A stretch of DNA of 64,000 nt from a candidate division WOR-3 bacterium (lineage in GTDB: Bacteria; Hydrothermota; Tepidihabitantia; Tepidihabitantales; Tepidihabitantaceae), in the NCBI GenBank assembly GCA_024653355.1, contig JANLFQ010000002.1:1-64000 (forward strand), in the 5' to 3' direction. Below the pieces are notes generated by a model. That model was not told the DNA's origin and did not search any database. It saw only the letters and a program-made list of their open reading frames with translations. The translations under genes were made by a program, and so were the position numbers. Shown piece after piece: positions 27,282 through 45,937 of the stretch (position 1 is its first letter; the number at the start of each line of letters is the position of its first letter).

Positions 27282-29648
27282 CTAACGGACGAGGGTTATC
27301 CGCTGGAATTTATCTCTCCTGTTTTCCTCAAAGCGGATGAAGTAGACGCCGGGGCTGAGATGGGAGAGGTCGTTTTCCTGTAGTGTGAGGGGCATTACCA
27401 GTCTACCGGATGCGTCACGGAGTTCTACTTTGGACAGCGAACGGTTATTGAAGGAAGCGAGGTTCAGTTTTCCGCGGGTAATGGTTGCCAACCGGTTTGC
27501 TTCAGATTTATTTCTGTTTTCCGCAATTCCTACATACCCGGTCCGGAAAAGAAACAGCCCGCCCGTGCTAATACAGGCGCCGATTGAGTCGCCCTTAGAC
27601 CAGACATCAGTCACCTCAGAATACTTGATACTGAAAACGGGCATCAGATAATAGTAGCCATAGAGTTGGGGATTGTTGCGGTTCCTTGCGTCAACTGCCG
27701 CAAACTCCTCGGCTGCGCCACAGAACACAAGACTCCTTCCAATGTGAACATCTTCAACATAGCCGTTGAAGTCTACCGTGCCCGTTATCCGGGGATTGGA
27801 TAGGTCAGAGAAATCAAGAATATGAACACCCGCGTCATAGTCGGCAAGGGCAAGGTGTTGACTGTTTCTAAACCGGTCAACACCCCGGCACTGATTGGGC
27901 GTGGTGAACTCGGTTATGAGCCGGGGGAGCCAGGGTCGCGCAACACTCGCAATTCCGAGGTCGCGGGGTGTCGGTGATGGTGTCCAGGGGTCATAGCCAC
28001 CGGCCAGGAATAGCACGCTGTCCTGTTTACTTACTTCCAGTGCTGCCCAGGTGGACCAGAAAAGCTGCCCGATGTCCTCAATCTGGGTCGGGTCGCCAAT
28101 GTCGATGATGCGTAGGTAGGTCTGACCGGAAAGCGCTGTCGGGACATAGGCAAGGCTGTCTTCCACGAAAAACTGATTCCCTCCGGCGTAGTCGCGCCAC
28201 ATTTTGGTACCAACCCAGTCCGGATGGAACGGGTCAGTTATCTTGACAATTGCGAGATAACAGAACCAGGGATAGCCGCGGACAATTAGATAGGCGTAAT
28301 CATCCTTAATCATCATACCGCCGATATCGACGATCTGGGCATTGGAAGGAATGGAATCAAGAAATCGGGAATAATACGAAATTTCTGTAATGTCATCGGG
28401 ATGAGTGATGTCAAGAACACGCAAACAACCATAGGAATCATAGATGTAGGCATAATCGCCCTCAACCTGAAGATAATAGGGGTTACCAAGATACAGATAG
28501 AAGGTATCAAGTCGCGGATTGTAGGGATAGGTGATATCATAGAGCACAGCACCGGCAAGAGCCTGATGGTAAAGGCGGTTTCCCTCAATGTAGTCGGCGG
28601 TTGAGCGTACATTAACCGTGGTGATTTCATAGGGATTTGCCGGGTTGGAGAAATTGGCAATCACCAGATTGTCAAGGTTGGCAATAAACGCATAGAGTGT
28701 TTCACCTGAAGGGTAGAGAGTAACATTCTGGGCGTCATTTAGACTGAGCGTGCCGAGCACCACCGGATTCGCCGGGTCAGCGATGTTAATCGCTGTTACA
28801 CCGGCATAGCGGCGCGCAATGCAGGCAATCGTGTCCCGAATTGCAAATCGCATCCCGTGGCTCAAACTTGCTACCGTGGATATTATTCTCGGATTGGCAG
28901 GGTCAGCGATGCTGTAAACGATAAAGGCGTTGTTGAGGTTGCTGTTGTACTGGGTAACAAATGCCAGGGTGTCCTTAATACAGACATCCATCAACCAGGT
29001 CTCTTGAGTGTTGGAACCAATAAGCCGGGGATTTCTTGGGTCACTGATGTTAAACACATATAAACCACCGATCCGGACAGTAACAAGGGCAAGGGTATCA
29101 GTCAGCGCAATACCGGTAGCACCCCAACCGAAGATTTCGTTGTAATTCGGGTCTTCATAAGGAATGTCAACCTGAGCAATCACTCGGTTTCCGGTTAGTG
29201 AAGACAAGTCATAGACCACCAGACCCTTATCGCCGCTGGCGCTAAACACATAGTTGCCCTGAACCGCAAAATCCCAGATGTAACCCGGCCCGGAGATTTC
29301 CTGAACCTTACGCAGGTTATCTTTGGTGAACACATAGAAACCGCCCCCGGAAGAAAACAGGATGTAATTGCCAAAAGGTTTAACCTGCCAGCCCGACATA
29401 TTCAGATAGTTACCGGCAAGGTTATAGTCACCAAGAAGAGAAAAGTTGAGCGAATCGTCGGTTTCCCAATTCATCGGCCGGTCCTTTTTTAACCCGATTG
29501 GGGCAAGCGGTTCGGTTGGCGAAAAGAGTGTATTGCGAATGATGTTACGGAAGTAGGTCGGGTGCTCAGAAGAAGGAAGAAGCATGCCCTGGTTCAAATC
29601 AACCGGGCTTGAGGCTATAACCAAAAAGACAGTTATAAGTGCCACCAT
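27282..29648 (-). CDS. Secreted LVIVD-repeat protein with C-terminal sorting domain
   Basis: 788 aa. Short signal peptide (residues about 1-15). The body carries many LVIVD-type propeller units, seen as 'D-x-x-N-P-R-I/L-x-G-x' followed by a strand such as 'LAFVTQYNSNLNNAFIVYSIADPANPRII'. These form beta-propellers of unknown ligand. The C-terminal 70 residues (KVELRDASGRLVMPLTL, LSPGVYFIRFE, RITLVR) are a typical sorting tail. Strong Shine-Dalgarno AAAGGAGG; it begins 11 nt after the TrmB gene and is presumably under its control. Confidence 0.86.
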   Translation of the reverse strand: MVALITVFLVIASSPVDLNQGMLLPSSEHPTYFRNIIRNTLFSPTEPLAPIGLKKDRPMNWETDDSLNFSLLGDYNLAGNYLNMSGWQVKPFGNYILFSSGGGFYVFTKDNLRKVQEISGPGYIWDFAVQGNYVFSASGDKGLVVYDLSSLTGNRVIAQVDIPYEDPNYNEIFGWGATGIALTDTLALVTVRIGGLYVFNISDPRNPRLIGSNTQETWLMDVCIKDTLAFVTQYNSNLNNAFIVYSIADPANPRIISTVASLSHGMRFAIRDTIACIARRYAGVTAINIADPANPVVLGTLSLNDAQNVTLYPSGETLYAFIANLDNLVIANFSNPANPYEITTVNVRSTADYIEGNRLYHQALAGAVLYDITYPYNPRLDTFYLYLGNPYYLQVEGDYAYIYDSYGCLRVLDITHPDDITEISYYSRFLDSIPSNAQIVDIGGMMIKDDYAYLIVRGYPWFCYLAIVKITDPFHPDWVGTKMWRDYAGGNQFFVEDSLAYVPTALSGQTYLRIIDIGDPTQIEDIGQLFWSTWAALEVSKQDSVLFLAGGYDPWTPSPTPRDLGIASVARPWLPRLITEFTTPNQCRGVDRFRNSQHLALADYDAGVHILDFSDLSNPRITGTVDFNGYVEDVHIGRSLVFCGAAEEFAAVDARNRNNPQLYGYYYLMPVFSIKYSEVTDVWSKGDSIGACISTGGLFLFRTGYVGIAENRNKSEANRLATITRGKLNLASFNNRSLSKVELRDASGRLVMPLTLQENDLSHLSPGVYFIRFEENRRDKFQRITLVR

Positions 29649-31180: not shown

Positions 31181-31822
31181 ATGTCAAAAAAGATGATGAC
31201 GCCCCTGTTAATCACAATGGTGGCGCTGATAGGCAGTACTGCTTGGGCCGATGCTCAATTTGGGTTTTCCGTAAAGCCTGGAATGAGCCTGAACGCTGTT
31301 CAATTCGGTTACAAGGCTGACAACCTCTTTGCCGGCCTTGGACTGGAGTTCGCCAGCCTCTCGGTTTCATCCAAAGTAAAGTATGAATACGGGGAACAGA
31401 CATATACCTACACGACCAAGGTAGGTGGCAACCTGTTTATGCCCCAGTTAGGTGCGCGCTACTTCTTTGTCAAAAACGAAGATAAAGGCAGCTATGTCAC
31501 CCCTTATATCGGCACCAGCCTTTTTTACACCTTTGGCAAGGTCAGCATCTCTGAGTCTGATGGTGAGACAACCTACCGGGATACCACTATGGAAAAAACA
31601 CTAAACGATGTGTTGAGCGGAAACATCGGCGGTACGCTCGGCTTCGGCGGTGAATACTACCTTTCCAACAACTTCTCAATAGGTGGTGAATTCGGAATCA
31701 GAATGCTTTTCGGGGGGACCAAAACCAAAGTCCCCGATTATTATTATGAAGAATATACTTTAACCAACAACCTCGGCTTGGGTGTAACCTACACCACCCT
31801 CGGTTTGAACTTCTACTTTTAG
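31181..31822 (+). CDS. Outer-membrane beta-barrel protein
   Basis: 213 aa using the ATG at 31181, which has AAAGGAGGACCT directly upstream; an in-frame extension to 31091 lacks these signals. Signal peptide residues 1-22 (STAWADA). The mature part is a set of alternating beta-strands rich in Gly, Tyr and Phe (FGFSVKPGMSLNAVQFGYKADNLFAGLGLEF, YVTPYIGTSLFYTFG, LGFGGEYYLSNNFSIGGEFGI) and ends in LGLNFYF, the terminal aromatic typical of barrels inserted by BamA. It resembles OmpA-like or opacity-type 8-10-stranded barrels. Function unknown. No terminator is evident. Confidence 0.8.
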   Translation: MSKKMMTPLLITMVALIGSTAWADAQFGFSVKPGMSLNAVQFGYKADNLFAGLGLEFASLSVSSKVKYEYGEQTYTYTTKVGGNLFMPQLGARYFFVKNEDKGSYVTPYIGTSLFYTFGKVSISESDGETTYRDTTMEKTLNDVLSGNIGGTLGFGGEYYLSNNFSIGGEFGIRMLFGGTKTKVPDYYYEEYTLTNNLGLGVTYTTLGLNFYF

Positions 31823-31968
31823 TCCGGGTCCAATTTACTCTCAACTCCTGCCTTAGGTGGGAGCCGACTTTTTAGCCTTTTTTCTGGCTCTGAATGGTTT
31901 TGGTAATAGAAGAGTTGGTAGTGTCAATATGATTTTGCGCCGTGGATAGACAAAGTTATGCCCAGATG

Positions 31969-31996
31969 TTGACTTTTGGCAATTTTTGTTTATAAT
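31969..31996 (+). promoter_or_regulatory. Main promoter of the polysaccharide operon
   Basis: TTGACT (31969-31974), 16-bp spacer, perfect TATAAT (31991-31996). Predicted start near 32003. Confidence 0.75.
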
Positions 31997-32002
31997 TAAA
32001 TA

Positions 32003-32208
32003 CAGCAGGGAAACATCGGGGAAGGAGGAAGTGCTCGCTTAAGGGCGGGCAAAACAAGGAGGAACGCAGATGAAGCGATTGGCTGCCGGGGGAGCCAGAG
32101 CAGAAACATCCCCGGAGAAACAAAATGTTAAACAAGTAACAACCGCACAAGGGTACCGTTTTTCGCCCCGTCACGGGGTATAAAAATATATATTGGGAAG
32201 GAGGAAAA
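32003..32208 (+). promoter_or_regulatory. Long structured 5' leader of the polysaccharide operon
   Basis: TCGGGGA (32016-32022) can pair with TCCCCGG (32109-32115), closing a domain that holds GCTCGC/GCGGGC and TGGCT/AGCCA hairpins. TCGCTT (32035-32040) can alternatively pair with AAGCGA (32073-32078). A further hairpin CCCCG-TCA-CGGGG lies at 32166-32178 and could compete for the first strand. This suggests a regulatory leader, but it does not match a riboswitch class that I know. Confidence 0.4.
32070..32183 (+). CDS. Possible 37-aa leader peptide of the polysaccharide operon
   Basis: ATG at 32070 with a textbook AAGGAGG 7 nt upstream; 37 codons; stop TAA 25 nt before the first operon gene. 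The product is basic and polar (starts [12 protein letters not shown], ends RFSPRHGV) with no signal peptide or known motif. It may be a leader peptide whose translation affects the RNA fold, or the Shine-Dalgarno match may be fortuitous. Confidence 0.35.
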
Positions 32209-33948
32209 ATGAGTCGCTCAATTGCGGTCGTCGGCGCCGGCACCTGGGGGAAAAACCTAGTGCGGGTGTTTGACAGTTTGAAAAGTTTGCACACCGTTTG
32301 TGATTCCAATCCTGCCGCACTAAGCGGGTTAACAATCTCAAATGGTGTCCATCTAACAAACGATTTTACCACCGTTCTCACCGAACCGGAGATTACCGCC
32401 GTTGCCATTGCCACTCCGGCAATCAGCCACTACGAGTTTGTCCGCGCCGCCCTGCTAGCAGACAAGGATGTGTTTGTCGAAAAACCGCTTGCCCTTGACC
32501 TCACCCAGGCTGAAGAACTGGTTCGCCTTGCCGAGAAAAAGGAGCGGATTTTGATGGTCGGGCACATCCTGCGCTACCATCCTGCCATCGTTCACCTTGC
32601 CGAGATGATTGAAAAGGGGGAACTGGGCAAGATTGACTACATCTACTCCAACCGCCTCAACCTGGGCCGACTGCGCACCGAAGAGAACATCCTCTGGAGT
32701 TTTGCCCCGCACGACATCAGCGTCATCCTTGCCCTTGTGCAGGAACGGCCTACAGCGGTATCGGCGCACGGTGAGGCTTTTCTCCAGCGAAACATTCCTG
32801 ATGTGACCCTTACTACCCTGGAATTTCCTTCTGGGGTTCATGCCTACACATTTGTCTCCTGGTTGCACCCGTTCAAAGAGCAGCGGCTGGTCGTGGTCGG
32901 CTCAAAACAGATGGTGGTGTTTGAAGACAACGGCTCCCGCCCCACCCTCGCCTGTTATCCCCATGACATCCGCTGGCATCAGGGGCGCATCCCGGTTGCA
33001 CTGAAAGGAGAAAAGAACCTTATTGAACTCCCGGCCGAAGAGCCGCTGCGCCTGGAATGCGAGCATTTTCTGGAAAGCATCGCCACCCGCATCCCGCCGC
33101 GCACCGACGGTAACGAAGGCATCCGGGTGTTGGAAGTCCTGACCGCCGCACAACAGTCACTGCAAAAGAGCGGCAAAACGGTGTCCCTGAATCCGTCTCG
33201 CAATGGCAACACCAAGAAGATTATGGTGCAGGTCAAAGAGCCAAAACCGGTGTTGACTGCAGCCGCGGTCCAGGTTCAAACCAGCACCGTATTTCCTCAC
33301 TCGATACCGGTTGAAGCAGAAACCGCATTTGCCGTGCCAAGCCCGGCTGAAGATGGTAAAGAACCGGAAACCACGCCCTTCATTCATCCCACCGCCATTG
33401 TTGACCCCGGGGCATCAATCGGCTCGGGTACCAAAATCTGGCACTTCACCCACATCTCCGCCAATGTCCGCATCGGCAAGAACTGCGTATTCGGTCAGAA
33501 TGTGTTTGTCGCGGAAGGGGTAACCGTGGGCGATAACTGCAAGGTTCAGAACAATGTCTCGCTCTATAAAGGGGTCTGTCTTGAAGAAGGGGTGTTTTGT
33601 GGGCCCTCGTGTGTCTTTACCAATGTCATCAACCCGCGCGCCTTTATCGAGCGCAAAACCGAATTCAAACCGACGCTGGTGAAAAAAGGTGCATCCATCG
33701 GTGCCAATGCGACGATTGTATGCGGCAACACCATCGGCCGTTACGCCCTGATTGGCGCCGGCGCCGTTGTCACTCGTGACATTCCTGATTACGCCCTGGT
33801 CGCTGGTGTTCCGGCGCGTCCCATTGGCTGGGTGTGCAAATGTGGCACGAAACTGGTTGTTGATGACCACCGCGCCCGCTGTCCGCGTTGTGGTAATGAG
33901 TATCAACCCGACGATGAAGGTGGGTTAAAGCCGTTAAAGGAGAAGTAA
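32209..33948 (+). CDS. Fused sugar-nucleotide 3-dehydrogenase (WbpB/WlbA-type) and N-acetyltransferase (WbpD/WlbB-type)
   Basis: 579 aa. Residues 1-325 are a Gfo/Idh/MocA oxidoreductase: NAD site [10 protein letters not shown], then FVEKPLALD and GHILRYHPA. It would oxidise C3 of UDP-GlcNAcA. An Ala/Pro/Val-rich linker (about 335-385) leads to a left-handed beta-helix acetyltransferase (about 388-545, hexapeptide repeats such as [13 protein letters not shown] and [13 protein letters not shown]) with a C-terminal zinc-ribbon-like CKCG...CPRCG. In P. aeruginosa these are separate WbpB and WbpD proteins, acting before and after the aminotransferase WbpE, whose homologue is the next gene. First gene of the operon; strong Shine-Dalgarno GGAAGGAGG. 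Confidence 0.9.
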
Positions 33949-35097
33949 ATGGAAGTACCAATCCTTGACCTGAAACGTCAGTACCGTTACCTCAAATCCC
34001 AAATCGACCACCGACTGCAACAGGCGCTTGACCATCAGAGGTGGATTATGGGTCCGGAGGTTCAGGAACTGGAACAAACCGTTGCCCGCTACATCGGCAC
34101 TCAATTTGCCGTCGGTGTCGCCTCAGGAACCGACGCCCTCGTTCTCGCACTCCGCGCCCTCGCTTACAAGCGCACCGGCAGCGACTTCTGGAAGCCAGCC
34201 GCCGAAATAATCACCACCCCCTTCACCTTCGCCGCCACCGCTGACGCCATCCTTCGTGCCGGCGCGACGCCCGTCTTCGTCGACATCGACCCCGAAACCT
34301 TTAACATCAACCCCGAGCGAATTGAAAATGCGTTGACCAAAAACACTGTCGGCATCATTCCGGTTCACCTTTATGGTCGGGCTTGCCCGATGGCGCAACT
34401 TAAGGAAATCGCCCAAAAGCACAACCTTTTTATCCTTGAAGATGTTGCCCAGGCGTTTGGTGCCTCTTATCAGGGTAAAAAGTGTGGCGCCTGGGGCGAT
34501 GCTGCCGCCTTCAGTTTCTTTCCGAGCAAAAATCTTGGTGGATTCGGTGACGGGGGTATCGTTACCACCGATGACCAATCCATTGCTGAGTTCGTTGACA
34601 TCCTACGTCGCCACGGTGGCAAAGACAAGTACAATGTTGATTACCTCGGCTACAACAGTCGGCTTGACACCCTGCAGGCGGCAATCCTTCTCGCCCGCTT
34701 TTCGGTTCTCGAGGAGTTCAATGCGCGCCGGCTCAAAGTTGCTGCTAATTACAACCGGGCATTCAGTTCGATTCCCCATTTAACCGTTCCCCGACTGCCG
34801 GCAAATGGAGAACATGTCTTCCATCAATACACCATTCGCCACCCGGAACGTGACCTCCTGAAACAGCACCTCGACCGGGCAAAGGTTGCGACGATGGTCT
34901 ATTACCCCATTCCCCTGCACAAGATGAAACTGTTTGCCACGCGCTGCCGCATCGGCGGGGAACTCAAAGAAGCGGAGAGAGCAGCACGCGAAGTCCTTTC
35001 ACTACCGATTGAACCGCTCCTTGAACCCGAAGAAGTTGATTTTGTAATCAAGCGCATTGAAGAGTACAGCTATCAACGACAAACGGTTTCGGTCTAA
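33949..35097 (+). CDS. UDP-3-keto sugar aminotransferase, DegT/DnrJ/EryC1 family (WbpE/WlbC-type)
   Basis: 382 aa. PLP enzyme of fold type I. The PLP lysine lies in FFPSKNLGGFGDGG, the aspartate in LFILEDVAQAFGASY, and the N-terminal GTDALVLALRAL is the phosphate-binding part. It is closest in pattern to WbpE/WlbC, which aminates the 3-keto product of the dehydrogenase using glutamate. Immediately follows the fused dehydrogenase-acetyltransferase with no gap, so all three catalytic steps to UDP-GlcNAc3NAcA are adjacent. Confidence 0.92.
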   Translation: MEVPILDLKRQYRYLKSQIDHRLQQALDHQRWIMGPEVQELEQTVARYIGTQFAVGVASGTDALVLALRALAYKRTGSDFWKPAAEIITTPFTFAATADAILRAGATPVFVDIDPETFNINPERIENALTKNTVGIIPVHLYGRACPMAQLKEIAQKHNLFILEDVAQAFGASYQGKKCGAWGDAAAFSFFPSKNLGGFGDGGIVTTDDQSIAEFVDILRRHGGKDKYNVDYLGYNSRLDTLQAAILLARFSVLEEFNARRLKVAANYNRAFSSIPHLTVPRLPANGEHVFHQYTIRHPERDLLKQHLDRAKVATMVYYPIPLHKMKLFATRCRIGGELKEAERAAREVLSLPIEPLLEPEEVDFVIKRIEEYSYQRQTVSV

Positions 35098-35100
35098 CTA

Positions 35101-36492
35101 ATGGCATTTACCCGCTCCTCACCCGCGGAAAACCCCTTGCCCCGCTTCGCAGTTCGTACCCTCCATATGCCGTTTGGTGTTTCGCACCTTACCCTGACTC
35201 GTGCCTTAACCGTAACCCTGCTTACCACCCTATCGAAAATCCTGGGATTTGTCCGGGAAATGCTCCTTGCCCACATCTTCGGCACCGCCCCAATTGTTGA
35301 CGCCTACCGTGTCGGCGAAACAATCACCACCGTTGGTGGTGGTTTCATCTCCAACACCTTTGATGTTTCCGCCCTGCCTCTGCTGGTGGAACGCAAACTG
35401 TGTAAAGACGAAGTCAGTTCCCGTAACCTCTTTGCCTCGCTTTGGACCATCGGTTTACTTTTTGCTCTTGCCATCGCCCTTATCACCTTTATTGCCGCAC
35501 CCTTTTTGGTATCCATCTTCGCCCCGAAAATCGGCCCACAAACCCGCACCCTTGCACTCACCGTCACCCGTCTTATGGCAATTGTCCCGGCGGCGTTAAT
35601 CCTTATCTCTGCTACTGCCGCCTATCACAACTCCCGGCGCAAATTTGCCATTCCGCGTCTCATCGACCCGGTTATCAATTTAGTTGCCATCCTGTTTATC
35701 GTAATCTGGGCAAAAAAAAGCGGCACATTTGCCCTCGCTGCCGGCTGGAGCAGTGGCCATCTCATTGGCTTGGTGGTAACAGTGGCACCTCTCATCTTTA
35801 CCGGTCATCGACTTCTTCGTTCCGTGCGCGACCCCGGAGTTCGGGAGTTTTTTCTCCTCTCTTTGCCCCTCCTTGCCTTCCTTTTCATCCGACCGGTCAA
35901 TCTCGCCCTGGGCCGGCTCTTCTCCTCTTTTCTCCCTTCGGGCAGTATCGCCATCCTTGGCTATGCCGACCGGCTCTTTGCTTTCCCCTGCAACCTCATC
36001 GCCGCCTCAATTGGAACAATATTTTTTACGCGGGCGAGTGAACTTGCCGCAACCGGCAAATCCCTTCATCTCCGCCGGCAAACCGGACAGCTTCTTAAAA
36101 TCTCAACTCTCATCCTCATCCCGGCAACCGTTCTCCTTCTATTTATCGCCCGTCCGCTGGTCCGGTTGCTTTACGAGCACGGTGCCTTTACCCCGGAAGC
36201 GGGCGCAAAAACTGCGCTCGCCCTCGCCATTCTCGGGTTGGGTCTGATGCCATTCACCGCCGCCGCTATCCTCACCGCTTACTTTCGCGGTCAAAAAAAC
36301 ACCCGGACACCGGTCATCGCTGCCCTGCTGGGCGCGGGCACCACCGCCTTGATTGATTTCGTTCTTGTCCATCCTCTTGGCATCCCGGGATTGGCACTGG
36401 GCTCAACCGCTGGCTTGACAACCAATATGGGTTACCTTTTGTGTGCTTTTCAGCGCGACAAAGCGTCCGCGCCCAGAACGGATTTGCGATGA
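35101..36492 (+). CDS. MurJ/MviN-family flippase of the polysaccharide operon
   Basis: 463 aa with about 12-14 membrane helices. The N-terminal signature TLLTTLSKILGFVREMLLAHIFGTAPIVDAYRV is MurJ-like, and 'FFLLSLPLLAFLFIRPVNLALGRLFSSFLPSGSIAILGYADRL' matches helices 7-8 of the family. The real MurJ is encoded at 20550, so this copy probably flips the lipid-linked polysaccharide repeat unit and takes the place of a Wzx protein. An internal ATG at residue 23 is an alternative start. Its stop overlaps the next start by 4 nt. Confidence 0.86.
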   Translation: MAFTRSSPAENPLPRFAVRTLHMPFGVSHLTLTRALTVTLLTTLSKILGFVREMLLAHIFGTAPIVDAYRVGETITTVGGGFISNTFDVSALPLLVERKLCKDEVSSRNLFASLWTIGLLFALAIALITFIAAPFLVSIFAPKIGPQTRTLALTVTRLMAIVPAALILISATAAYHNSRRKFAIPRLIDPVINLVAILFIVIWAKKSGTFALAAGWSSGHLIGLVVTVAPLIFTGHRLLRSVRDPGVREFFLLSLPLLAFLFIRPVNLALGRLFSSFLPSGSIAILGYADRLFAFPCNLIAASIGTIFFTRASELAATGKSLHLRRQTGQLLKISTLILIPATVLLLFIARPLVRLLYEHGAFTPEAGAKTALALAILGLGLMPFTAAAILTAYFRGQKNTRTPVIAALLGAGTTALIDFVLVHPLGIPGLALGSTAGLTTNMGYLLCAFQRDKASAPRTDLR

Positions 36493-37817
36493 ACATTATC
36501 ACCCTCCTTACCCTCGGTTTTTTCTGTCTCGCTTTACTCCTCCGTTATCCCGAAATCACCCTGATATTGTTTCTCTTCTCCGGCACCTTCAAATCGCAGT
36601 TCGCCGCGCTGTTCCCTCAGGCACCGGACATCACCGTTATTCTGGCGCTTATCCTCATCACCGGAACTGCCTTCTCCGTTCCCGCATTCCTGCGCACTGC
36701 CCGTGCCGCAAAAGCGTCAACCGCAACCTCGCTCAAATTCTCTTTCGACTCCTCCCAGATTTTCAACTTCCTGCTAACCTTCTTCAGCCTCGTCGTTGTA
36801 ATGACTCTATCCGCCTTTGCCGACCCCGACAACTCCTATGGTCTGGAAAAAACGGTTCGGTTCGCGACCCTGACCGGCCTTGCCTTATTTGCCCCGATAG
36901 TAACGGTCCATTCTGAGAAAAACCTCTTGCGCCTCCTCATTACCTTCATTATCGTCGCCCTCCTGATGGTTGCGCTCGGTCAAACCACGCCCGAGGGATT
37001 AACCGCGTTCGGTGCCAATCACATCGCCACCGGCAGAATCATCGGACTGGGTTTTCTCGGTGGCCTTTACTTTACCCTCCGTTCCCAGCCACGCACGCTG
37101 ACAACCGTTGTCGTCCGCGTTGTTATGCTTATTGTCAACATCGTCCTTGGTTACGGGGTCTTTTACTCGGGCTCGCGCGGGGTATTGGTCGCCTTACTTT
37201 GCGCCCTTGGTACCGCCGGTCTAATCGCTTTCTATTTTCGAAAGGGCAGAAACCTTATCCTCACCGGCGCCGCAACCGTTATCGCCATCATTGTTATCAC
37301 CTCCATCTTCGCCCCCGACGCCGCTTTGACGATGAACAAACGTATCCGCAACACCGTCTCCGGACCAATCGACCAGACCGCACACACCCGGGTCATTCGT
37401 GCCGAAGCGGCAATTGATATGTTTCGCAACCACCCTTTCACTGGCGTTGGCATCGGCGGCTTTGACCAGGAGTTCAACCCTTACCAAAGTGAACGGGGTG
37501 ACTATCCCCACAACCTCTTTTTAGAGGTAGCGGCTGAACTGGGCATCGTCGGCTTACTCCTCATCACTTTACTTCTATTTATCCCGCTGCGCGCCCTGTT
37601 CAGAGGTCTCGCTCACGGCAACCGACCGATAACGCTCTTGATTTTAACCATCACCGTTTACTTACTGGTCAATGCCCTGTTCTCGGGTGACCTCAATGAC
37701 AACCGTTTCCTATTCGCCGCTTTGGGTTTGTGCCTTGCCGCACCCAGGGCAGCAACCAAAGCCTCAGAAATTACCCGTGAAGGAGCAGCACAATGGCAAC
37801 CCGCATCTGCATCCTGA
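36489..37817 (+). CDS. O-antigen ligase / polymerase family protein (Wzy/WaaL-type)
   Basis: 442 aa. The ATG at 36489 overlaps the flippase stop (ATGA); an extension to 36441 is out of keeping with the membrane start. About 11-12 helices with a large periplasmic loop at residues about 290-350 containing the family motif 'HTRVIRAEAAIDMFRNHPFTGVGIGGFDQEF' and 'PHNLFLEVAAELGIVGLLL'. Such proteins polymerise lipid-linked repeat units or ligate them to an acceptor. Position in the operon favours a polymerase role. Confidence 0.87.
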   Translation: MNIITLLTLGFFCLALLLRYPEITLILFLFSGTFKSQFAALFPQAPDITVILALILITGTAFSVPAFLRTARAAKASTATSLKFSFDSSQIFNFLLTFFSLVVVMTLSAFADPDNSYGLEKTVRFATLTGLALFAPIVTVHSEKNLLRLLITFIIVALLMVALGQTTPEGLTAFGANHIATGRIIGLGFLGGLYFTLRSQPRTLTTVVVRVVMLIVNIVLGYGVFYSGSRGVLVALLCALGTAGLIAFYFRKGRNLILTGAATVIAIIVITSIFAPDAALTMNKRIRNTVSGPIDQTAHTRVIRAEAAIDMFRNHPFTGVGIGGFDQEFNPYQSERGDYPHNLFLEVAAELGIVGLLLITLLLFIPLRALFRGLAHGNRPITLLILTITVYLLVNALFSGDLNDNRFLFAALGLCLAAPRAATKASEITREGAAQWQPASAS

Positions 37818-38938
37818 CTTCCTCCCATACCGTGCACGATACCAGGATATTCCATCGGGAAGCTAAAACCCTTGCCCGGGCAGGCTATCAAACTGTCCTC
37901 GCCGGCATCGGCACGAATCACATCAAGTCCGCCCCACATCTCGCCGCCGTTAAAAACCCTGTTGTCATTTACCAATTCCCTGCGCCCGGCTCGCGAATTA
38001 GCCGGTTTATCTTCTCCTTACCGCGCTATCTGCGCTTTGCTCTGCGAATGCGCGCCGATATCTACCACCTTCACGACCCGGAACTACTTCCCCTCGCCCT
38101 CATCCTAAAAACCCTCAACCGCCGAGTCGTGTGTGACATCCATGAAGACTACTACCGTCAGATACCGGATAAACGCTATATCCCGCGACCTTTCCGGACC
38201 CTTCTTGCCTCCCTGTACAACAACTGGGAAAAGTTCGTTGCCCGGCACATCGATGGTGTTGTCACCGCCACGGACACAATTGCTCAGCGCCTCTCTTCAT
38301 CCGCGCGCCATTTGGTAACGGTGAAAAACTATCCCGAGCCGTTTCCTTCTCATCAACCGGCACCTTCTCATTCTGCACAATCAGCGCCCAACGGACAATT
38401 TCGTATCGTCCACCTTGCCCGCATCCTCACACCGGAACGGGGTATCACCCTGCTTCTTGACGCCCTTGCCCAACTGCCCGATTGTGAACTGCTCCTCGCC
38501 GGCAAATTCAGTCCATCGTCTTACGAGAACGAAATCAAAAATCACCCCGCATATCCCCGCGTACGCCATCTTGGTGTCATACCCCATCTCGATTGCTTCC
38601 GATGGTACGCAACAAGCAATGTCGGTGTTGTCCCTTCATTGCCGGTTCTCGGCTACGAATTCGCTCTGCCGGTAAAGATGTTTGAGTTTATGAGCGCGGG
38701 CCTGCCCGTAATTGTACCCGACTTTCCGCCCCTGCGCGCCATCATCAAGGAGTGCGCCTGCGGCTTGACTTTCTCACCGGGCGATGCAACCTCGTTAGCC
38801 GATGCGCTCCGGACAATAAAATTCCATCCGGAACAAGCCCGCGAGATGGGAAAAAACGGCCAGGATGCCGTGAATAAAATCTACAACTGGTCAAATGAAG
38901 AAAAAAAACTTTTGAAGTTTTATGAACGGATTATTTAA
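37793..38938 (+). CDS. Glycosyltransferase family 4
   Basis: 381 aa. GT-B fold. The N-terminal half binds the acceptor (ICILTSSHTVHDTRIFHREAKTLARAGY), and the C-terminal half carries the donor-binding region with 'LARILTPERGITLLLDALAQLP' and the E-x7-E-like 'GYEFALPVKMFEFMSAGLPVI'. It would add one sugar to the lipid-linked repeat unit in the cytoplasm. Its start lies 25 nt inside the polymerase gene behind GAAGGAG. Confidence 0.9.
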   Translation: MATRICILTSSHTVHDTRIFHREAKTLARAGYQTVLAGIGTNHIKSAPHLAAVKNPVVIYQFPAPGSRISRFIFSLPRYLRFALRMRADIYHLHDPELLPLALILKTLNRRVVCDIHEDYYRQIPDKRYIPRPFRTLLASLYNNWEKFVARHIDGVVTATDTIAQRLSSSARHLVTVKNYPEPFPSHQPAPSHSAQSAPNGQFRIVHLARILTPERGITLLLDALAQLPDCELLLAGKFSPSSYENEIKNHPAYPRVRHLGVIPHLDCFRWYATSNVGVVPSLPVLGYEFALPVKMFEFMSAGLPVIVPDFPPLRAIIKECACGLTFSPGDATSLADALRTIKFHPEQAREMGKNGQDAVNKIYNWSNEEKKLLKFYERII

Positions 38939-39557
38939 CCGAGTATTGTTTTTAGGCGCCCACACCGACGATGAGTTCGGTTGTTCGGGCACAATTGCCC
39001 GCCTGATTGAGGAGAAAAAAGAGGTTTTCTATATGGCATTTTCTACCTGCGAAGAATCGGTACCAAAAGGGTTCCCGCCTGACATTTTGAAAAAGGAGTG
39101 CTTTACCGCGGTGACAAAACTCGGTGTTAAACCGGAAAACTGGCAGCTCTTTGACTTTCGGGTTCGCCGCTTCCCTGAATTTCGCCAAGAAATCCTTGAA
39201 GAACTTGTCCGCTGCCGGCAACAGCTCAACCCCGACCTCGTATTTCTGCCGGCATCATCGGACATCCATCAGGACCACCGGGTGATTTTTGAAGAAGGTT
39301 TACGGGCATTCAAACACACCTCAATCCTCGGTTACGAACTTCCGATGAACACCCTTACCTTCCGTCATGTTTGCTTTGTCCCGCTCGAAGAACATCACAT
39401 TCAGCGCAAAATCGAAAGCCTTGCCGCCTATCAATCGCAACGGTTCCGTTCCTACACCGGCGAAGATTTTATCCGTAGTCTTGCCCGGGTCCGGGGCGTT
39501 CAAGCCGGGGTCCAGTTTGCTGAAGCGTTTGAGGTGGTAAGATGGATATGGAAGTAA
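38922..39557 (+). CDS. PIG-L family deacetylase
   Basis: 211 aa. LmbE/PIG-L zinc-dependent N-deacetylase. The N-terminal GAHTDDE motif (metal and catalytic Asp) and HQDH at about residue 115 are intact. Substrates in the family include GlcNAc-containing lipids and sugars. In this operon it may remove an acetyl group from a lipid- or nucleotide-linked amino sugar, which the adjacent hexapeptide acyltransferase could re-acylate (inference). It overlaps the GT4 gene by 17 nt and the acyltransferase gene by 16 nt. Confidence 0.9.
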   Translation: MNGLFNRVLFLGAHTDDEFGCSGTIARLIEEKKEVFYMAFSTCEESVPKGFPPDILKKECFTAVTKLGVKPENWQLFDFRVRRFPEFRQEILEELVRCRQQLNPDLVFLPASSDIHQDHRVIFEEGLRAFKHTSILGYELPMNTLTFRHVCFVPLEEHHIQRKIESLAAYQSQRFRSYTGEDFIRSLARVRGVQAGVQFAEAFEVVRWIWK

Positions 39558-40600
39558 AAATCGGCTCTGAAGTCAAAATCGACTGCCCGGAACTAATCCT
39601 CGGCGCTAACTGCTCAATTGGTATCCCGGAAGAAGAAAATCTTTCCCCCGCCCCAAAAGTCTTAATCCGCTGCTCCCGACTGGAACTTGGCACGGGCTGT
39701 GTAATCGCACCCGGGGTTGTCATAACCGGTGGCTCAATCAAACTGGACGCCGGTTGCCGCATCTCTTCAGGCGTAACCATCCGGGTTCAAGAATCACTCG
39801 AACTCGGTAAAAACAGCGTCATCGGTCCCAACTCCCTTATTGAAGGCATAAAGATAAAAATCGGCCGGGAACTCTGGTGCGGACCATATGTGCGCATCGG
39901 CGGTGGTTCCTGCTTTGAACCGCAATCCCTCCTGACCGCGGGCTACTGGTTGCACCTTGGCATGCGGGCATTTATCAACACCGCCCGTCCGGTAACAATC
40001 GGCAACGAAGTTGGCATCGGTACCAACAGCGCCATCTACACCCACGGCGCTTATCAGTCCATCCTGATGGGATTCCCGGTTGCCTTTGCCCCGGTGACGA
40101 TTGGCGATAACTGCTGGCTACCTGGAGCAACCGTCAACCCCGGTGTAACAATCGGCGCCAACACCGTCATCGGTGTTGGCTCGGTCGTAACAAAAAGCAT
40201 TCCGGCGGGCGCTCTTGCCGCTGGTGTTCCCTGCCGTGTGCTTAAAGAAAATGTCTTCCCCCGGCCACTTTCTGAGCAGGAACGCCGGGCATTTTTCCTT
40301 GACTTTCTGCCCATTGCCGGGGAAATCCTTGCCCATCAGACCAAACAAAATTTCCAGTTCCTTCCCCAAACCCTCACCCTCATAATCGATACCCCAACTC
40401 CAACCACCATCGCCTATCAGGACAACACCATAAATGTGGTCTCCGGGGAAACACCTGCCACCATCTTTCACTTAGGCGAACGCGCGATAACCGGCACCGT
40501 GACGCCCATCACCGAAAAACTCCGTGATCTGCTCCGTCGTTACGGCATCCGATTTAAAAGTGAACCGGTCGATGGAAACTACCAACCCTGGGTCGAATGA
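39542..40600 (+). CDS. Hexapeptide-repeat acyltransferase
   Basis: 352 aa. Residues about 5-240 are a left-handed beta-helix of hexapeptide repeats (IGSEVKIDCPELILGANCSI, then VTIGDNCWLPGATVNPGVTIGANTVIGVGSVV). The typical 'IPAGALAAGVPCRVL' closes the helix. Residues 250-352 are an extra domain with no match that I recognise, unlike short acetyltransferases of about 200 aa. Probably O- or N-acetylates a sugar of the polysaccharide. Two ATGs (39542, 39548) follow GAGGTGG. Confidence 0.85.
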   Translation: MDMEVKIGSEVKIDCPELILGANCSIGIPEEENLSPAPKVLIRCSRLELGTGCVIAPGVVITGGSIKLDAGCRISSGVTIRVQESLELGKNSVIGPNSLIEGIKIKIGRELWCGPYVRIGGGSCFEPQSLLTAGYWLHLGMRAFINTARPVTIGNEVGIGTNSAIYTHGAYQSILMGFPVAFAPVTIGDNCWLPGATVNPGVTIGANTVIGVGSVVTKSIPAGALAAGVPCRVLKENVFPRPLSEQERRAFFLDFLPIAGEILAHQTKQNFQFLPQTLTLIIDTPTPTTIAYQDNTINVVSGETPATIFHLGERAITGTVTPITEKLRDLLRRYGIRFKSEPVDGNYQPWVE

Positions 40601-40601
40601 A

Positions 40602-41690
40602 ATGAACGCCTCCCTACCGCTGATCACCATCATCATTCCCTGTCGTAACGAAGAGAACTCCATCATCAGAGCACTTCAATCAATAATCGACCAGGACTAC
40701 CCATCGCATCTCATCGAAATCATCGTCGTCGATGGTAATTCTGAAGACAACACCCTCACCCGGCTCCAGCAGTTTGCCCGCGCCCATTCCGACCGCAACA
40801 TTTGTATCCTTTCCAACCCACATCGTACCACCCCTTATGCGTTAAACATTGGCATCGCCCACGCCCGCGGTGAAATCATATTTACCTTTGGCGCCCACAA
40901 CCGTTACTCACCAAATTACATCTCGGAAGCGGTCCGTATTCTCAACAACACCGGTGCCGCAGCGGTAGGGTCTGTTGCTGCCACCCTTCCATCCAGCCGC
41001 ACGCCGGTTGCTCGCGCCATCGCTCGTGTCCTCGCTTCGCCGTTTGGCGTCGGTAATTCACTGATGCGTATCGCTCGCAACTATCACAACATCCGCGCTG
41101 CCGACACCGCCTCCTGCCCTGGTTACCGGCGCGAGGTGTTCACATCTTTGGGCACCTTCAACACCGGACTTGTCCGCAACCACGACATCGAATTCAATCT
41201 CCGACTGCGTCGTACCGGCAGGCAAATCCTCCTCGCACCATCGATAAAAACCTACTACTATGCCCGCTCCCGTCTCAGCGACCTCTTCACCAACGCTTTT
41301 GCCAACGGTTACTGGGTCATTCGTGGCACCCGATTTGCGACCGCCCCGTTTACCTTTCGTCACCTCGTTCCAGCCCTGTTTCTAATAACCCTTCTCATAT
41401 CCGGTGCTGCTGTTTTTCCCCTTGCCCATTACCTGACAAGACTCAACATAAGCCCCGCTTTTGTTCTTGCTTCAACACCGCTCCTTTTGACCGCCGGCAG
41501 TTACCTACTCCTTCTTATTATATTCTCTACGCTCACCACCCCTCGCCTGCATCACCTTCCATACTACCTCATCACCTTCCCTATCCTTCATATTGGCTAC
41601 GGACTTGGTTCTCTCTGGGCGCTCCTGACACACTGGCGTCACCCGCCTTCAGTAAAAGCAGCGCTTTCCTTAAAACAGCAAAGGAGTTAA
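40602..41690 (+). CDS. Glycosyltransferase family 2 with C-terminal membrane helices
   Basis: 362 aa from ATG 40602, one nt after the preceding stop. Upstream in-frame starts at 40572 and 40524 would overlap the acyltransferase gene. Residues 5-230 are a GT-A domain: LITIIIPCRNEENSI, IIVVDGNSEDNTL and RNHDIEFNLRLRRTG (the D-x-E/ED catalytic region). Three hydrophobic helices follow, as in ExoA/EpsM-type enzymes that extend lipid-linked chains at the inner membrane. Confidence 0.88.
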   Translation: MNASLPLITIIIPCRNEENSIIRALQSIIDQDYPSHLIEIIVVDGNSEDNTLTRLQQFARAHSDRNICILSNPHRTTPYALNIGIAHARGEIIFTFGAHNRYSPNYISEAVRILNNTGAAAVGSVAATLPSSRTPVARAIARVLASPFGVGNSLMRIARNYHNIRAADTASCPGYRREVFTSLGTFNTGLVRNHDIEFNLRLRRTGRQILLAPSIKTYYYARSRLSDLFTNAFANGYWVIRGTRFATAPFTFRHLVPALFLITLLISGAAVFPLAHYLTRLNISPAFVLASTPLLLTAGSYLLLLIIFSTLTTPRLHHLPYYLITFPILHIGYGLGSLWALLTHWRHPPSVKAALSLKQQRS

Positions 41691-41696
41691 TTAATA

Positions 41697-42677
41697 ATGA
41701 CACCAGTTTTATTCATCATCTTCACCATCTCGGCATCTCTTCTCCTCAACACCATCCTTGCCCGCCTTGCGCTCCAGTACAACTGGTGCGACCACCCGGG
41801 AAAAGCCAAAATCCACCCCAAGCCTGTTCCATTTACCGGCGGTATCGGCATCCTTTTGACCTGGAGTTGCACCCTTCTTATTCTTACGACCTTCCAGCCC
41901 AAAATCCCGATTTTGCGACTTATCATCCCGGCTGCCGCCGCTTTGCTCATCGGTACCTTTGACGACTTTTACTGGAAACAACGCACCGTTCCCGGACTCA
42001 AACTCCTTCTTCAAATTGCCCTTGCCCTGAGCATCTCCCTTCTGCTCAACACTGCCTGGCAGCCATCTCCTTCCCATTCGCTGGGTATTACTACCTTCTC
42101 CCTCGCCTACATCCTGTTGGCAATCAATGCCTTTAACCTTGCTGATGGCCTTGACGGTCTTGCCGGGGGACAGGCACTCATCTCCTTCCTCGGTTTGTCA
42201 ACGGTTTATGCCCTACTGAACAAAAACGAATTCCTCCTGCCGCTTCTCCTCCTCGTGGCAACAATTACCGGATTCCTCATACTGAACCTCCAGCACCCGT
42301 CACGCCTTTTCCTCGGAGATGGTGGTAGCCATCTTCTTGGGGCGACCTTTGCAACCTTCACCCTGAACCTTATGTCATTGCGCGTTAGCGAAAAAGAAAT
42401 CTCGTCCCCTGCTCCTCTGCCGCATTGGTGCGCTATCGACATCTGGACCGCAATTGCCCTGCTCCTCTTTATCGGCGCACCGCTCGTTGACCTGATTTGG
42501 GTCACAATCCGCCGTATCTATCTCCATAAACCCCTCTTTTCCTCAGACCGCAATCACCTCTACGACATCCTCGCAACTACCGGGCTCGGTCCCCGTTGTA
42601 CCGTGTTCATCTTCTGGTTCGGACACGCCCTCCTTGTCCTCACCGGTGTCACCATGCTCCTTTTGGAGGTCGGATGA
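41697..42677 (+). CDS. Polyprenyl-phosphate sugar-1-phosphate transferase (WecA/MraY family)
   Basis: 326 aa, about 10-11 membrane helices. Signature motifs are complete: KIHPKPVPFTGGIGI, IGTFDDFYWKQ, NLADGLDGLAGG, FLGDGGSHLLG and DRNHLYDIL. The enzyme starts repeat-unit assembly by moving an N-acetylhexosamine-1-phosphate from UDP to undecaprenyl phosphate. It is WecA-like rather than MraY because it lies in a polysaccharide operon away from mur genes. Good AAAGGAG site. The stop overlaps the next start by 4 nt. Confidence 0.92.
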   Translation: MTPVLFIIFTISASLLLNTILARLALQYNWCDHPGKAKIHPKPVPFTGGIGILLTWSCTLLILTTFQPKIPILRLIIPAAAALLIGTFDDFYWKQRTVPGLKLLLQIALALSISLLLNTAWQPSPSHSLGITTFSLAYILLAINAFNLADGLDGLAGGQALISFLGLSTVYALLNKNEFLLPLLLLVATITGFLILNLQHPSRLFLGDGGSHLLGATFATFTLNLMSLRVSEKEISSPAPLPHWCAIDIWTAIALLLFIGAPLVDLIWVTIRRIYLHKPLFSSDRNHLYDILATTGLGPRCTVFIFWFGHALLVLTGVTMLLLEVG

Positions 42678-43804
42678 AAATTCCTCTTGCCGCACCCGAC
42701 ATCACCACCCTGGAACATCGTGCCATTCAGGCCGTTCTTAAAACTGGCAGGCTGGCACTCGGTTCCTATGCCACCCGATTTGAAAACAAACTCGCCCGGC
42801 TTGTCCAGCGCCGCTACGCTGTTGCCACCAACTCTGGCACCGCCGCTTTACATCTGGCGGTGCGCGCCCTCGGTCTCAAACACGGTGACGAAGTCATCAC
42901 CACGCCGTTTTCCTTTTGTGCCTCGGCGAATTGCCTACTCTACGAAGGGGTAAAACCGGTATTTGTCGATATCGACCCCAAAACGCTCTGTATCGACCCG
43001 GCGAAAATTGAATCTGCCATCACCCCGCGCACCCGCGCCATCCTCGCCGTTGACATATTCGGTCACCCCGCCAACTGGAACGCCCTTACCGCCCTTGCCC
43101 GGCGCCACCGCCTTTTCCTCATTGAAGATGCCTGCGAAGCTCTGGGCAGCGCCCTGCGCACGCCCCAGGGGCGAAAGCGCTGCGGCACCTTTGGAACCAT
43201 CTCCACCTTTGCCTTTTACCCCAACAAACAGATTACCACCGGTGAAGGTGGCATGCTTCTCACCAACAACTACCGTTTGAGTCAACTCTGCCGCTCTATG
43301 ACCAATCAGGGTCGAGCTGGCTTCAACGGCAAGTGGCTCTCCCACATCCGGCTCGGCTACAACTACCGCCTCGATGAAATGAGCGCCGCCCTTGGCTGGG
43401 TACAACTGCGTCGTCTGCCAGTTATCCTCAAACGCCGGCGCCGCGTTGCCCGGCTTTACACGCAGCTCCTTGCCTCAATACCACAGATTCAAACTCCCAG
43501 CGCTGCTCCGGGTGCCTTCGTCCAGTGGTTCGTTTACTGTATCCGCCTTGCCCCTGAAATCAACCGCGACAAAATCATCGCTCACCTCCAAAATCAGGGC
43601 ATTGGCTGCGCGCCCTACTTCCCGCCCATTCACCTTTTGCCCTTCTACCGCTCCGGTTTCGGCTATAAGCCCGGCGCCTTTCCGGTCACAGAAAAGATTG
43701 CCCGCCAGACTCTTGCCCTTCCTTTTTACAGCAAATTAAAGGCCGAACAAATTTATTATATCGTCTCTTGCCTGCAAAAGGCAATAAAACAACAGGGGGT
43801 CTAA
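42674..43804 (+). CDS. Second sugar aminotransferase, DegT/DnrJ/EryC1 family
   Basis: 376 aa from ATG 42674, behind GGAGGT and overlapping the WecA-like stop (ATGA). PLP lysine in TFAFYPNKQITTGEGGML, aspartate in LFLIEDACEALGSAL. It differs clearly from the aminotransferase at 33949 (this one has YPNKQ, the other FPSKN) and is more like 4-keto-sugar aminotransferases of the perosamine/bacillosamine type. So a second amino sugar may be in the polymer. Its keto-sugar substrate would need a 4,6-dehydratase that is not in the window. Confidence 0.9.
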   Translation: MKIPLAAPDITTLEHRAIQAVLKTGRLALGSYATRFENKLARLVQRRYAVATNSGTAALHLAVRALGLKHGDEVITTPFSFCASANCLLYEGVKPVFVDIDPKTLCIDPAKIESAITPRTRAILAVDIFGHPANWNALTALARRHRLFLIEDACEALGSALRTPQGRKRCGTFGTISTFAFYPNKQITTGEGGMLLTNNYRLSQLCRSMTNQGRAGFNGKWLSHIRLGYNYRLDEMSAALGWVQLRRLPVILKRRRRVARLYTQLLASIPQIQTPSAAPGAFVQWFVYCIRLAPEINRDKIIAHLQNQGIGCAPYFPPIHLLPFYRSGFGYKPGAFPVTEKIARQTLALPFYSKLKAEQIYYIVSCLQKAIKQQGV

Positions 43805-43808
43805 AAAG

Positions 43809-45899
43809 ATGACAAAAGAAGAACATGGTTTAAGTTATTACCTTGACCTTATTAACCGAAGGTTTGGCTTTTTCCTCGTTCTGTTTACCAGCAGCGCGCT
43901 CCTCGTCTTCATCGCCAGCCAGACGGTACGTCCCTTATATCAGTCCAGCGCCACCATCCTCGTCAACCGTACCACCAGCACAACCGGTGCCGAGTTCATC
44001 TTCAACCCTTCAGCCGGCTCCTTCTCCGCACGCCCCAACCTTGCCAACCACATCGAAATCATCAAAAGCCGTACCCTCGCTCAGCTCGTGCTCGACACGC
44101 TGAGTGAAGCCCAGCGCACCGAACTCCAGCGTTATGTCACGAACGACCCGGTGGTCGAACTGGTGAACAGTCTTACGGTACGTGCCGTGCGCGACGCCGA
44201 TATCCTCAAACTCTCAGTTAATGCCCCAACCCGGGAACTGGCACGGGCACTGGCGCTCGCCTATGTTGACGCCTATCAAGCCTGGACGCTGGAACGCAAT
44301 CGGGCGGACATCCGTGCGGTTCGGGAGTTTGTTGCCACGCAGTTGGCGGGCATCAGCACCCGTCTTGACTCCGCCGAACAGGCGCTGGAAAAATACAAAC
44401 GAACTGTTGGTAGCACCGACCTCTCTGCCCAAGCGCAGGCGCTCATTGAACGGCAGAGCACCGTTCTGTCGCTGTACGAACGCACCAACGCTGAACTTGC
44501 CGGCTTGAAAAAAGAACTCGCCCTTCTGCCGAATCTTGATTCAACCGCGGCCGACAATCGCGCCCCAGGCACCAATTTGCCATTACTCGCCTCAATCACC
44601 GCTCAACTCACCACCCTTGAAACCGAACGCACCGGTCTCATCATCCAGGGATACGACACCCTCAGTCCCCGCCTTCAGGAACTCAGTAAACGGGTTGACG
44701 AACTGAAAACCCGGCTCACCGCTCTTTTCCTCAATGAGGACCCAACCTCCATCAAGTCGCTCCCCGAAGTTGCCGCGCGCCGCGCATCCATCGCCACCGA
44801 AATCACCCGACTGGAAGCCCAGCGCAATGTCCTAAAAGCGACTATTGCTCACTACGACCAGGAACTTAACCGTCTCCCGACCGAAGAACGGCAACTGGCA
44901 CGCCTGACCCGTGATGTCGAAGTTGCCCGTCAGGTCCATTCTCTCCTCGAACTGAAACTGGAAGAAGCCCGCATCCAGGAAGCCGGCCGACTTTCACCGG
45001 TGGCGCTGATTGACGCCCCGGGTCCAGGACGAAAGATTCGGCCCAGTCCACTAAAAAATGCCCTGACCGCTCTCCTTTTCAGCATCCTCTTCGCCCTTGG
45101 CACCACCACCCTTGTTGACCGGCTTGACACCCTGATTCGCCATCCCGAAGACCTCGAACGGCGCTCCTGGACTATCATCGGTTCTATACCCCGGCTCAAC
45201 GCAACCGCGCCGTTGGAACTACCGGAAAACATCTGCGAACAGTTCCGTATCCTGCGCACCAACCTCCAGTTCCTTGGCGCCGAAAAGAAAATCCAGAAAA
45301 TTGTCATCAGTTCACCCAGCCCTTCGGAAGGAAAGTCCACCGTCGCCACCAACCTCGCCCTGGTCCTTGCCCGCAACGGCAAAAAAACTGTGCTCATCGA
45401 CTGCGACCTCCGCAAACCGGTCATCCATAAGCATTTCAATCTGCGGCGTAAACCGGGCATCACCGATGTTGTCCTTCTTGGCACACCGCTGGAACAAGCG
45501 CTGCACCATTCTTCGCCCGATGCCCCTGCGGTCATCTGCGCCGGCACCACACCACCTTCACCGGTTGACTTCTTCACCTCCAGCGCCTTTATCTCATTTC
45601 TCAACCGGCTGGCGGAAACCTACGAATACATCATCATCGACACACCGCCGGTTCTGGTATCAGCCGACGCCCTGGCTCTGGCTGCGAAATCAGACGGCAT
45701 CCTCCTTGTGACCCGAATGAACCAAACCGATATCCGTGCCCTCACCGAAGCCCGCAAACTCATCAACCAGGCGCAGGCACGAATCCTGGGGGTCGTTGCC
45801 AACGGTATCAACCTCAAACACCGCTACGGCTACTATCGATACAAATACCGCTACTACCACTACCGCTATGCGACCAATCCCCAAAAGGCAGAAGGTTAG
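43809..45899 (+). CDS. Polysaccharide co-polymerase with bacterial tyrosine kinase domain (Wzc-type)
   Basis: 696 aa. Wzz-type chain-length domain with helix at about 22-40, periplasmic coiled coils at about 170-400, second helix near 415-435, then a BY-kinase. Walker A SPSEGKST (Lys509), Walker A' VLIDCDLRKP and Walker B IIIDTPP are intact. The C-terminus has nine tyrosines within about 20 residues (RYGYYRYKYRYYHYRY), the autophosphorylation cluster of this class. It controls chain length and export. Last gene of the operon, which lacks an obvious Wza exporter or a separate phosphatase. Confidence 0.93.
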   Translation: MTKEEHGLSYYLDLINRRFGFFLVLFTSSALLVFIASQTVRPLYQSSATILVNRTTSTTGAEFIFNPSAGSFSARPNLANHIEIIKSRTLAQLVLDTLSEAQRTELQRYVTNDPVVELVNSLTVRAVRDADILKLSVNAPTRELARALALAYVDAYQAWTLERNRADIRAVREFVATQLAGISTRLDSAEQALEKYKRTVGSTDLSAQAQALIERQSTVLSLYERTNAELAGLKKELALLPNLDSTAADNRAPGTNLPLLASITAQLTTLETERTGLIIQGYDTLSPRLQELSKRVDELKTRLTALFLNEDPTSIKSLPEVAARRASIATEITRLEAQRNVLKATIAHYDQELNRLPTEERQLARLTRDVEVARQVHSLLELKLEEARIQEAGRLSPVALIDAPGPGRKIRPSPLKNALTALLFSILFALGTTTLVDRLDTLIRHPEDLERRSWTIIGSIPRLNATAPLELPENICEQFRILRTNLQFLGAEKKIQKIVISSPSPSEGKSTVATNLALVLARNGKKTVLIDCDLRKPVIHKHFNLRRKPGITDVVLLGTPLEQALHHSSPDAPAVICAGTTPPSPVDFFTSSAFISFLNRLAETYEYIIIDTPPVLVSADALALAAKSDGILLVTRMNQTDIRALTEARKLINQAQARILGVVANGINLKHRYGYYRYKYRYYHYRYATNPQKAEG

Positions 45900-45901
45900 G
45901 G

Positions 45902-45930: not shown

Positions 45931-45937
45931 ATATCCG

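Follow-up and report, generated by a model that had tools for sequence, protein, structure and literature searches.

EAR and JUMPstart/ops are leader elements of polysaccharide operons, antitermination of the RfaH/LoaP type is known for such operons, and CsrA-controlled leaders of the E. coli pga type combine many GGA motifs with polysaccharide genes. The leader described here, from a genome of candidate division WOR-3, a group apparently known mainly from environmental genomes, likewise combines many GGA motifs with polysaccharide genes, and it differs from EAR and JUMPstart/ops in that no Rfam family of this sort matches it. Among the systems considered, the nearest worked-out parallel is ppe2 of M. 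tuberculosis, whose expression is reported to depend on translating a riboswitch-controlled leader frame (PMC11260477). There, a short leader frame with its own Shine-Dalgarno (SD) sequence stands before the gene, as it does here, and the AUGA stop/start overlap found there recurs in one relative of our leader (G005). The two differ in that a B12 riboswitch and reporter data are presented for ppe2, whereas our leader contains no known aptamer, and in that the frame described below stops 25 nt before a gene with an SD sequence of its own.

The window, by which we mean the whole stretch of 64,000 nt that was analysed, belongs to the genome designated G000, and the leader and operon features given below lie on its plus strand. 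A promoter-like sequence, TTGACT-16-TATAAT, with 11 of 12 consensus matches, occupies 31969-31996 and is the only such site found (shuffles gave a mean of 1.0). Since this site is sigma-70-like, transcription probably starts near 32003, giving a leader of about 205 nt, in good agreement with the original prediction of a leader of roughly 200 nt before a polysaccharide operon. By eye, comparable promoter-like sites were seen at the same place in five of the related leaders (G001, G002, G005, G012a and G012b). The only terminator-like site in 31500-32700 lies at 31845-31863, 5' of the promoter, and none was found within the leader. A GGAGG at 32200-32204 serves as the ribosome-binding site of the first gene (32209-33948), whose product joins a Gfo/Idh oxidoreductase to a hexapeptide acyltransferase in one fusion protein. 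It is followed by closely packed genes at 33949-48254 for DegT aminotransferases, a MurJ-type flippase, a Wzy_C protein, glycosyltransferases, PIG-L, a hexapeptide protein, a GNVR/ParA-type ATPase and GNAT; judged from strand and packing, 32209-48254 is presumed to be a single polysaccharide operon. Two cluster proteins of about 200 residues (45938-46522 and 46519-47121) have no Pfam match at E 0.001. Elsewhere in the window, 27282-29648 encodes an LVIVD-repeat protein with a weak C-terminal match to a Por secretion tail, below the Pfam cut-off.

Our preferred reading, which we hold tentatively and rate somewhat short of an even chance, is that of a ribosome-entry leader whose open reading frame is free in sequence and is coupled to expression of the operon, limited to one WOR-3 family. 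Relatives of the leader were sought by BLASTN over 61 genomes, which returned a full relative in G001 (86%), a partial one in G002, both of the same genus as G000, and several weaker matches that on reading were start regions of unrelated genes. A WOR-3 fragment with 72% identity over 156 residues (L088) makes WOR-3 (Caldifarciminota in the taxonomy) the probable phylum. Among 15 inspected loci upstream of first-gene orthologues, G012 and G005 proved to have related leaders and G008 a partial one; by eye, the other 12 had a coding gene upstream, showed nothing similar or were cut off. Together with a second copy in G012, seven leaders from three genera were compared (G000, G001, G002, G005, G008, G012a and G012b).

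Leader identity between G000 and G001 is 173/205 (84%); fourfold sites within the opening 300 codons of the gene that follows agree at 91/146 (62%), and aligned bases 5' of the promoter at 51/118 (43%). The blocks GGGAAA..GGGGAAGGAG, AAAACAAGGAGGAA and GGCTACCGGGGGAGCCA are still present in G002, whose fourfold identity with G000 is down to 103/237. Because the leader exceeds both the fourfold sites and the upstream DNA in identity and keeps these blocks in G002, it is under selection and, on this comparison, a real, evolutionarily constrained element. Conservation is uneven along it: the first 26 nt (32003-32028), a 5' block with GGGAAA..CGGGGAAGGAGG, are identical in G001 (26/26), a hairpin at 32081-32096 is identical at 15 of 16 positions, and 32097-32120, with the 3' strand of the proposed closing helix and its surroundings, at 17 of 24. 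The 5' block is represented by a GGGAAAnAnnGGGGAAGGAG-like sequence in G002 and by GCAAGGGG in G005 and G012b.

The ribosome-binding sequence of the leader, AAGGAGGAA at 32056-32064, contains GGAGG (32058-32062); AAAACAAGGAGGAA is identical in G000, G001 and G002, and a similar purine block occurs in G005, G008, G012a and G012b, which bears out the original description of a textbook SD site. A second SD-like AAGGAGGAA lies at 32022-32030, closely followed by GTG CTC GCT TAA (region 32022-32042); in G001 the frame of this second site has no stop there and, by eye, runs in phase into the leader frame. The leader frame itself (32070-32183, 37 codons) is open in G001 (37 codons) and G002 (34 codons). 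It had been proposed to act as a peptide-controlled attenuator, in which sensing of the 37-residue peptide, or of its codons, as it is translated would determine whether the operon is transcribed. The textbook SD and a frame open in all three genus members would suit such a device, but the codon changes in the frame between G000 and G001 comprise 13 non-synonymous to 1 synonymous, whereas 21 to 82 were counted over the opening 300 codons of the gene that follows. With 13 of 14 changed codons altering the amino acid, as against 21 of 103 in the gene, the peptide is not what is kept, and a conserved leader peptide was rejected. Furthermore, the frames of G002, G005 and G012 show no relationship past their first codons, no regulatory codon run was seen by eye among the 37 codons, and the leader is free of terminator-like sites, all of which makes attenuation the least probable explanation that we considered.

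What is shared by the frames is their extent. In all seven leaders, a frame whose start codon follows the first base of the SD-like block by 8-27 nt reaches the vicinity of the first gene, ending between 42 nt before and 4 nt inside it or running into it; the frame overlaps the first gene (ATGA) in G005 and continues into it in G008. The chance of such an end by shuffling was 0.18 for G000, 0.15 for G001, 0.17 for G002, 0.135 for G012a, 0.56 for G012b, 0.097 for G005 and 0.83 for G008, each well within chance on its own, with a joint chance of about 2e-4 when the values are multiplied as if independent and G001 is left out, in a test that was devised after the frames had been seen and that leaves some freedom in picking a start codon close to the SD-like block. 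G012b also offers an earlier ATG, whose frame is 6 codons long, and the start codon of G012a is far from its SD-like block. This pattern suggests selection for an open frame and not for its amino acids.

The conserved structural core appears to be the bulged hairpin GGCU-G-CC[GGG]GG-AGCC at 32081-32096. Its pattern, GGCTNCCGGGGGAGCC, occurs once in each of the three genomes of the genus and in none of the 25 others of the order. Before the orthologous genes, hairpins reading GGUU-A-CC[GGG]GG-AAUC in G012 and GGCG-U-CC[GGG]GG-CGCC in G005 were seen by inspecting the upstream regions and not by a pattern search; such a hairpin arose in 18 of 20000 shuffled G012a leaders and 16 of 20000 shuffled G005 leaders. 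A pattern search for the hairpin did lead to the second G012 copy (G012b), GGUG-A-CC[GGG]GG-AACC, which has one mismatch and stands before a MurJ flippase gene with its own promoter-like sequence. The two G012 copies lie about 6 kb apart within one polysaccharide cluster (G012:C257, L241, minus strand, about 3049-3145 and 9261-9380). The hairpin is thus present in 6 of the 7 compared leaders, one of the six having been found by searching for it, and is missing from the G008 leader. The distance from the first base of the start codon to the hairpin is 11 nt in the window's genus, 10 in G005 and 9 in G012a.

Across the six hairpin sequences, 35 of 36 pair cells are standard and two of the six pairs are altered on both sides, whereas slid controls of the alignment were 17-67% paired. 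When the 3' letters were re-dealt, 16 of 500 shuffles reached the observed percentage paired and covariation score, 98 had as many covarying pairs and 337 as many pair types; since re-dealt letters often match the observed counts, the support from covariation is modest. On this moderate evidence, the hairpin is probably conserved, with its pairing kept, across three genera before polysaccharide genes. It is read in differing frames in different genera, so that the RNA rather than the peptide would be what matters.

Under the ribosome-entry reading, the conserved heart of the leader would be a module made up of the 5' GGGG-containing block, the strong SD, the start codon and the small bulged hairpin. 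Ribosomes would enter at the leader SD and translate a frame whose amino acids do not matter; as that frame stays open until just before the first gene, entry at the leader would be passed on to the operon, either by termination-reinitiation or because the nascent leader is shielded from Rho. How frequently such entry occurs would depend on the hairpin and the G-rich pairings. Translation of the frame, its coupling to the operon and any sensed signal are what we infer here. If the leader works as proposed, it would be a control element of polysaccharide synthesis absent from Rfam, and a short frame with a perfect SD would have been kept for its openness and not for its peptide.

All pairings named in the original prediction exist in the sequence, but only the hairpin at 32081-32096 keeps its pairing while the letters change. 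The closing helix (32016-32022 with 32109-32115; seven pairs, one of them G-U) has the same letters in G001 but is shortened by eye to GGGG/CCCC (four pairs) in G002, and inspection of G000, G001 and G002 revealed no covariation in it. Of the predicted inner hairpins, the one just described recurs, but hairpin 1 (TGCTCGCT / GGCGGGCA, 32032-32051, in the centroid fold) is kept in G001 with an altered loop and absent from G002. The alternative pairing of TCGCTT (32035-32040) with AAGCGA (32073-32078), said to compete with these structures, was rejected: a helix at least as long between both segments arose in 8378 of 20000 shuffles, and the pairing is broken in G001 and missing in G002. A downstream hairpin that was also expected to compete, CCCCG-UCA-CGGGG at 32166-32178, is present and has no T run after it, but only 4 bp of it remain in G001 and, by eye, a different hairpin stands in G002. 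Folding of 32005-32125 is somewhat more stable than that of shuffles (z = -2.46, 3/200 as good), and that of the whole leader hardly so (z = -1.53, 15/200).

In G005, G008 and G012 an arm near a conserved GCGATGC is found instead, and computed folds show a long arm in G005, G008, G012a and G012b. Without interruption, the helix of this arm extends at most to 9 bp in G008 (64 of 20000 shuffles as long), 11 bp in G012b (105), 7 bp in G012a (1030) and 5 bp in G005 (11260). In G008 (L147/L242, G008:C55, about 4080-4139), GTATTGCGATGCGGTAA and the 9-bp arm are kept although the CCGGGGG hairpin is absent; starting at a TTG that follows the SD-like block of this element would extend the Gfo/Idh protein by 17 residues, and a gap of N letters precedes the element. 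Such arms bear on a further explanation, a ligand-binding riboswitch or other sensory RNA in which the 5' block, the closing helix, a variable arm and the bulged hairpin form a junction, a small molecule (e.g. a nucleotide sugar) changes ribosome access, and the frame is either incidental or the output. The 26/26 identity of the 5' block in G001, hairpin pairing kept in three genera, the placement before polysaccharide genes, the two copies in G012 and the long arms, with helices of 9 and 11 bp in G008 and G012b, are consistent with it. On the other side, the closing helix does not covary, the arm is absent in G002 and does not exceed chance in G005 (11260/20000) or G000 (8378/20000), inspection by eye found no pairing that sequesters the SD, and the leader has no terminator-like site. 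Nor is there a relevant Rfam match: Rfam 15 gave nothing relevant in the window at gathering score or in 31820-32300 up to E 10, and only irrelevant matches in ten loci (up to E 1) and the G012b region (up to E 10). Convincing matches outside the family are likewise lacking in 147 genomes of the phylum under Infernal's stricter filters. Because of a likeness to the last hairpin of the c-di-GMP-I riboswitch, a divergent member of that class was considered; it was rejected, as it is not among the Rfam matches of 31820-32300 up to E 10. We regard a sensory RNA as a possible but rather doubtful reading. The sole Rfam match of the window at gathering score is a tRNA gene on the minus strand (18038-18111), and a narrow literature search found no publication on riboswitches in WOR-3.

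A long gene cluster for polysaccharide synthesis behind a conserved leader hairpin is also what a docking site for a specialised NusG paralogue, of the RfaH/LoaP type, would look like. The LoaP/dfn hairpin is likewise small and belongs to the leader of a long biosynthetic operon, but it has a UNCG-type loop, the type bound by LoaP, and acts with a NusG paralogue (PMC12691694), whereas the hairpin here has a GGG loop and a bulge. Each of the six carriers (G000, G001, G002, G005, G008 and G012; genomes 90-98% complete) has a single NusG-family match and no second one, and the leader has no Rfam match, which leaves such docking very improbable; a site for antitermination by some other factor is possible. 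As for CsrA-controlled leaders, with which the GGA motifs and polysaccharide genes are shared, none of the same six carriers has a CsrA match at E 0.001 (1 of 28 genomes of the order has one), and CsrA control of the leader was ruled out, within the limits of the search, by this absence. CsrA, a specialised NusG and the Rfam families are, within the limits of these searches, out as explanations.

The hairpin region could alternatively be merely the decayed start of a deleted NAD-dependent sugar epimerase gene of the SDR family, functionless now. In G012b it reads TTG-RYLVTGGTGFTGS, which we take to be an SDR start motif and which none of 100000 shuffles with the hairpin fixed contained, the motif having been chosen after it was seen. 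The frames of the window's genus begin with 18 protein letters not printed here and with MKQKATGGA, their start codons being equally far away; G003 and G004 have an intact epimerase-like gene (M.FLVTGGAGFIGSN, named by motif) directly before the Gfo/Idh gene, and G007 has another SDR-like gene there. BLASTN of the G012b stretch also matched SDR gene starts in G010 (E 0.086) and G006 (E 1.8). Against mere decay, the stretch has persisted through saturating divergence although its peptide is not constrained, the hairpin falls in other reading frames within the leader frames of G005 and G012a, and CCGGGGG occurs in none of the 11 intact SDR starts displayed from 30 loci. Four leader peptides had no Pfam match up to E 10, and the PDB matches of two of them include no epimerase. 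We consider a functionless remnant unlikely. An epimerase origin as such is a plausible inference for one locus (G012b) and a lead for the others; it leaves the retention of the stretch unexplained, and the sequence of the hairpin could partly reflect a coding origin. No intact epimerase gene carrying this leader was found in the loci searched. In L311 (G008:C134), an intact SDR gene starts GCG-ATG-CGG-GCA-TTG-GTT-ACC, and GCGATGCGG of the leader arm is an SDR gene start too, which may be a further vestige of an epimerase within the leader, or a coincidence.

Origin and function can also be read jointly, as a new lineage-specific regulatory RNA from an operon that lost its first gene, a sugar epimerase, although this combination is quite improbable. 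The ribosome-entry site and first codons of the epimerase would have been kept and reshaped into a hairpin-gated leader frame, which would control the rest of the operon and would have been copied to a second transcription unit. If the leader works as proposed, it may also be a case in which the beginning of a lost gene turned into a regulatory element.

As far as 147 genomes of the phylum show, the leader seems limited to one family, since no convincing match appeared outside it under Infernal's stricter filters. Model R1 had matches at E 1 in 56 of these genomes, but below E 0.02 only its five training leaders were returned (next 0.0265), and by eye seven weaker matches included no such leader, most lying in or at gene starts and one past a gene end. 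Over 74 chosen loci of 110, the known G012 and G005 loci being left out, R1 again gave the G002 leader (L038) plus one match at E 0.87. Model R2, trained only on the G005 leader and the two of G012, gave over the 147 genomes, besides its three training leaders, 12 places with E values from 0.026 to 0.36 and worse. One of the 12 is the G001 leader (E 0.048 for its genome), which is outscored by a place in G077 (E 0.026), taken for a chance match to an unrelated place. Within short loci R2 marks the G002 (16.5 bits) and G000 (15.5 bits) leaders, but both miss E 0.5 genome-wide.

Searches by letter pattern and by BLASTN gave a similar picture. The pattern GCGATGCGRYA...AGGARG matched 20 of the 147 genomes, including the G008 leader and both G012 leaders; the remaining rows were judged unrelated from the printed letters alone, and G005 lay outside the gap limit. 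When the G012b leader was compared by BLASTN with the 18 genomes of the family, it found no other match of full length (the next best had E 0.023), and two of the five short matches that were read are SDR gene starts. A loose hairpin pattern is not rare in the family: it occurred at 47 places in these 18 genomes and its reversed control at 25, and the four that were read proved to be the second leader copy (L212), a terminator-like site (L201), a place within a gene (L206) and palindromic DNA (L202).
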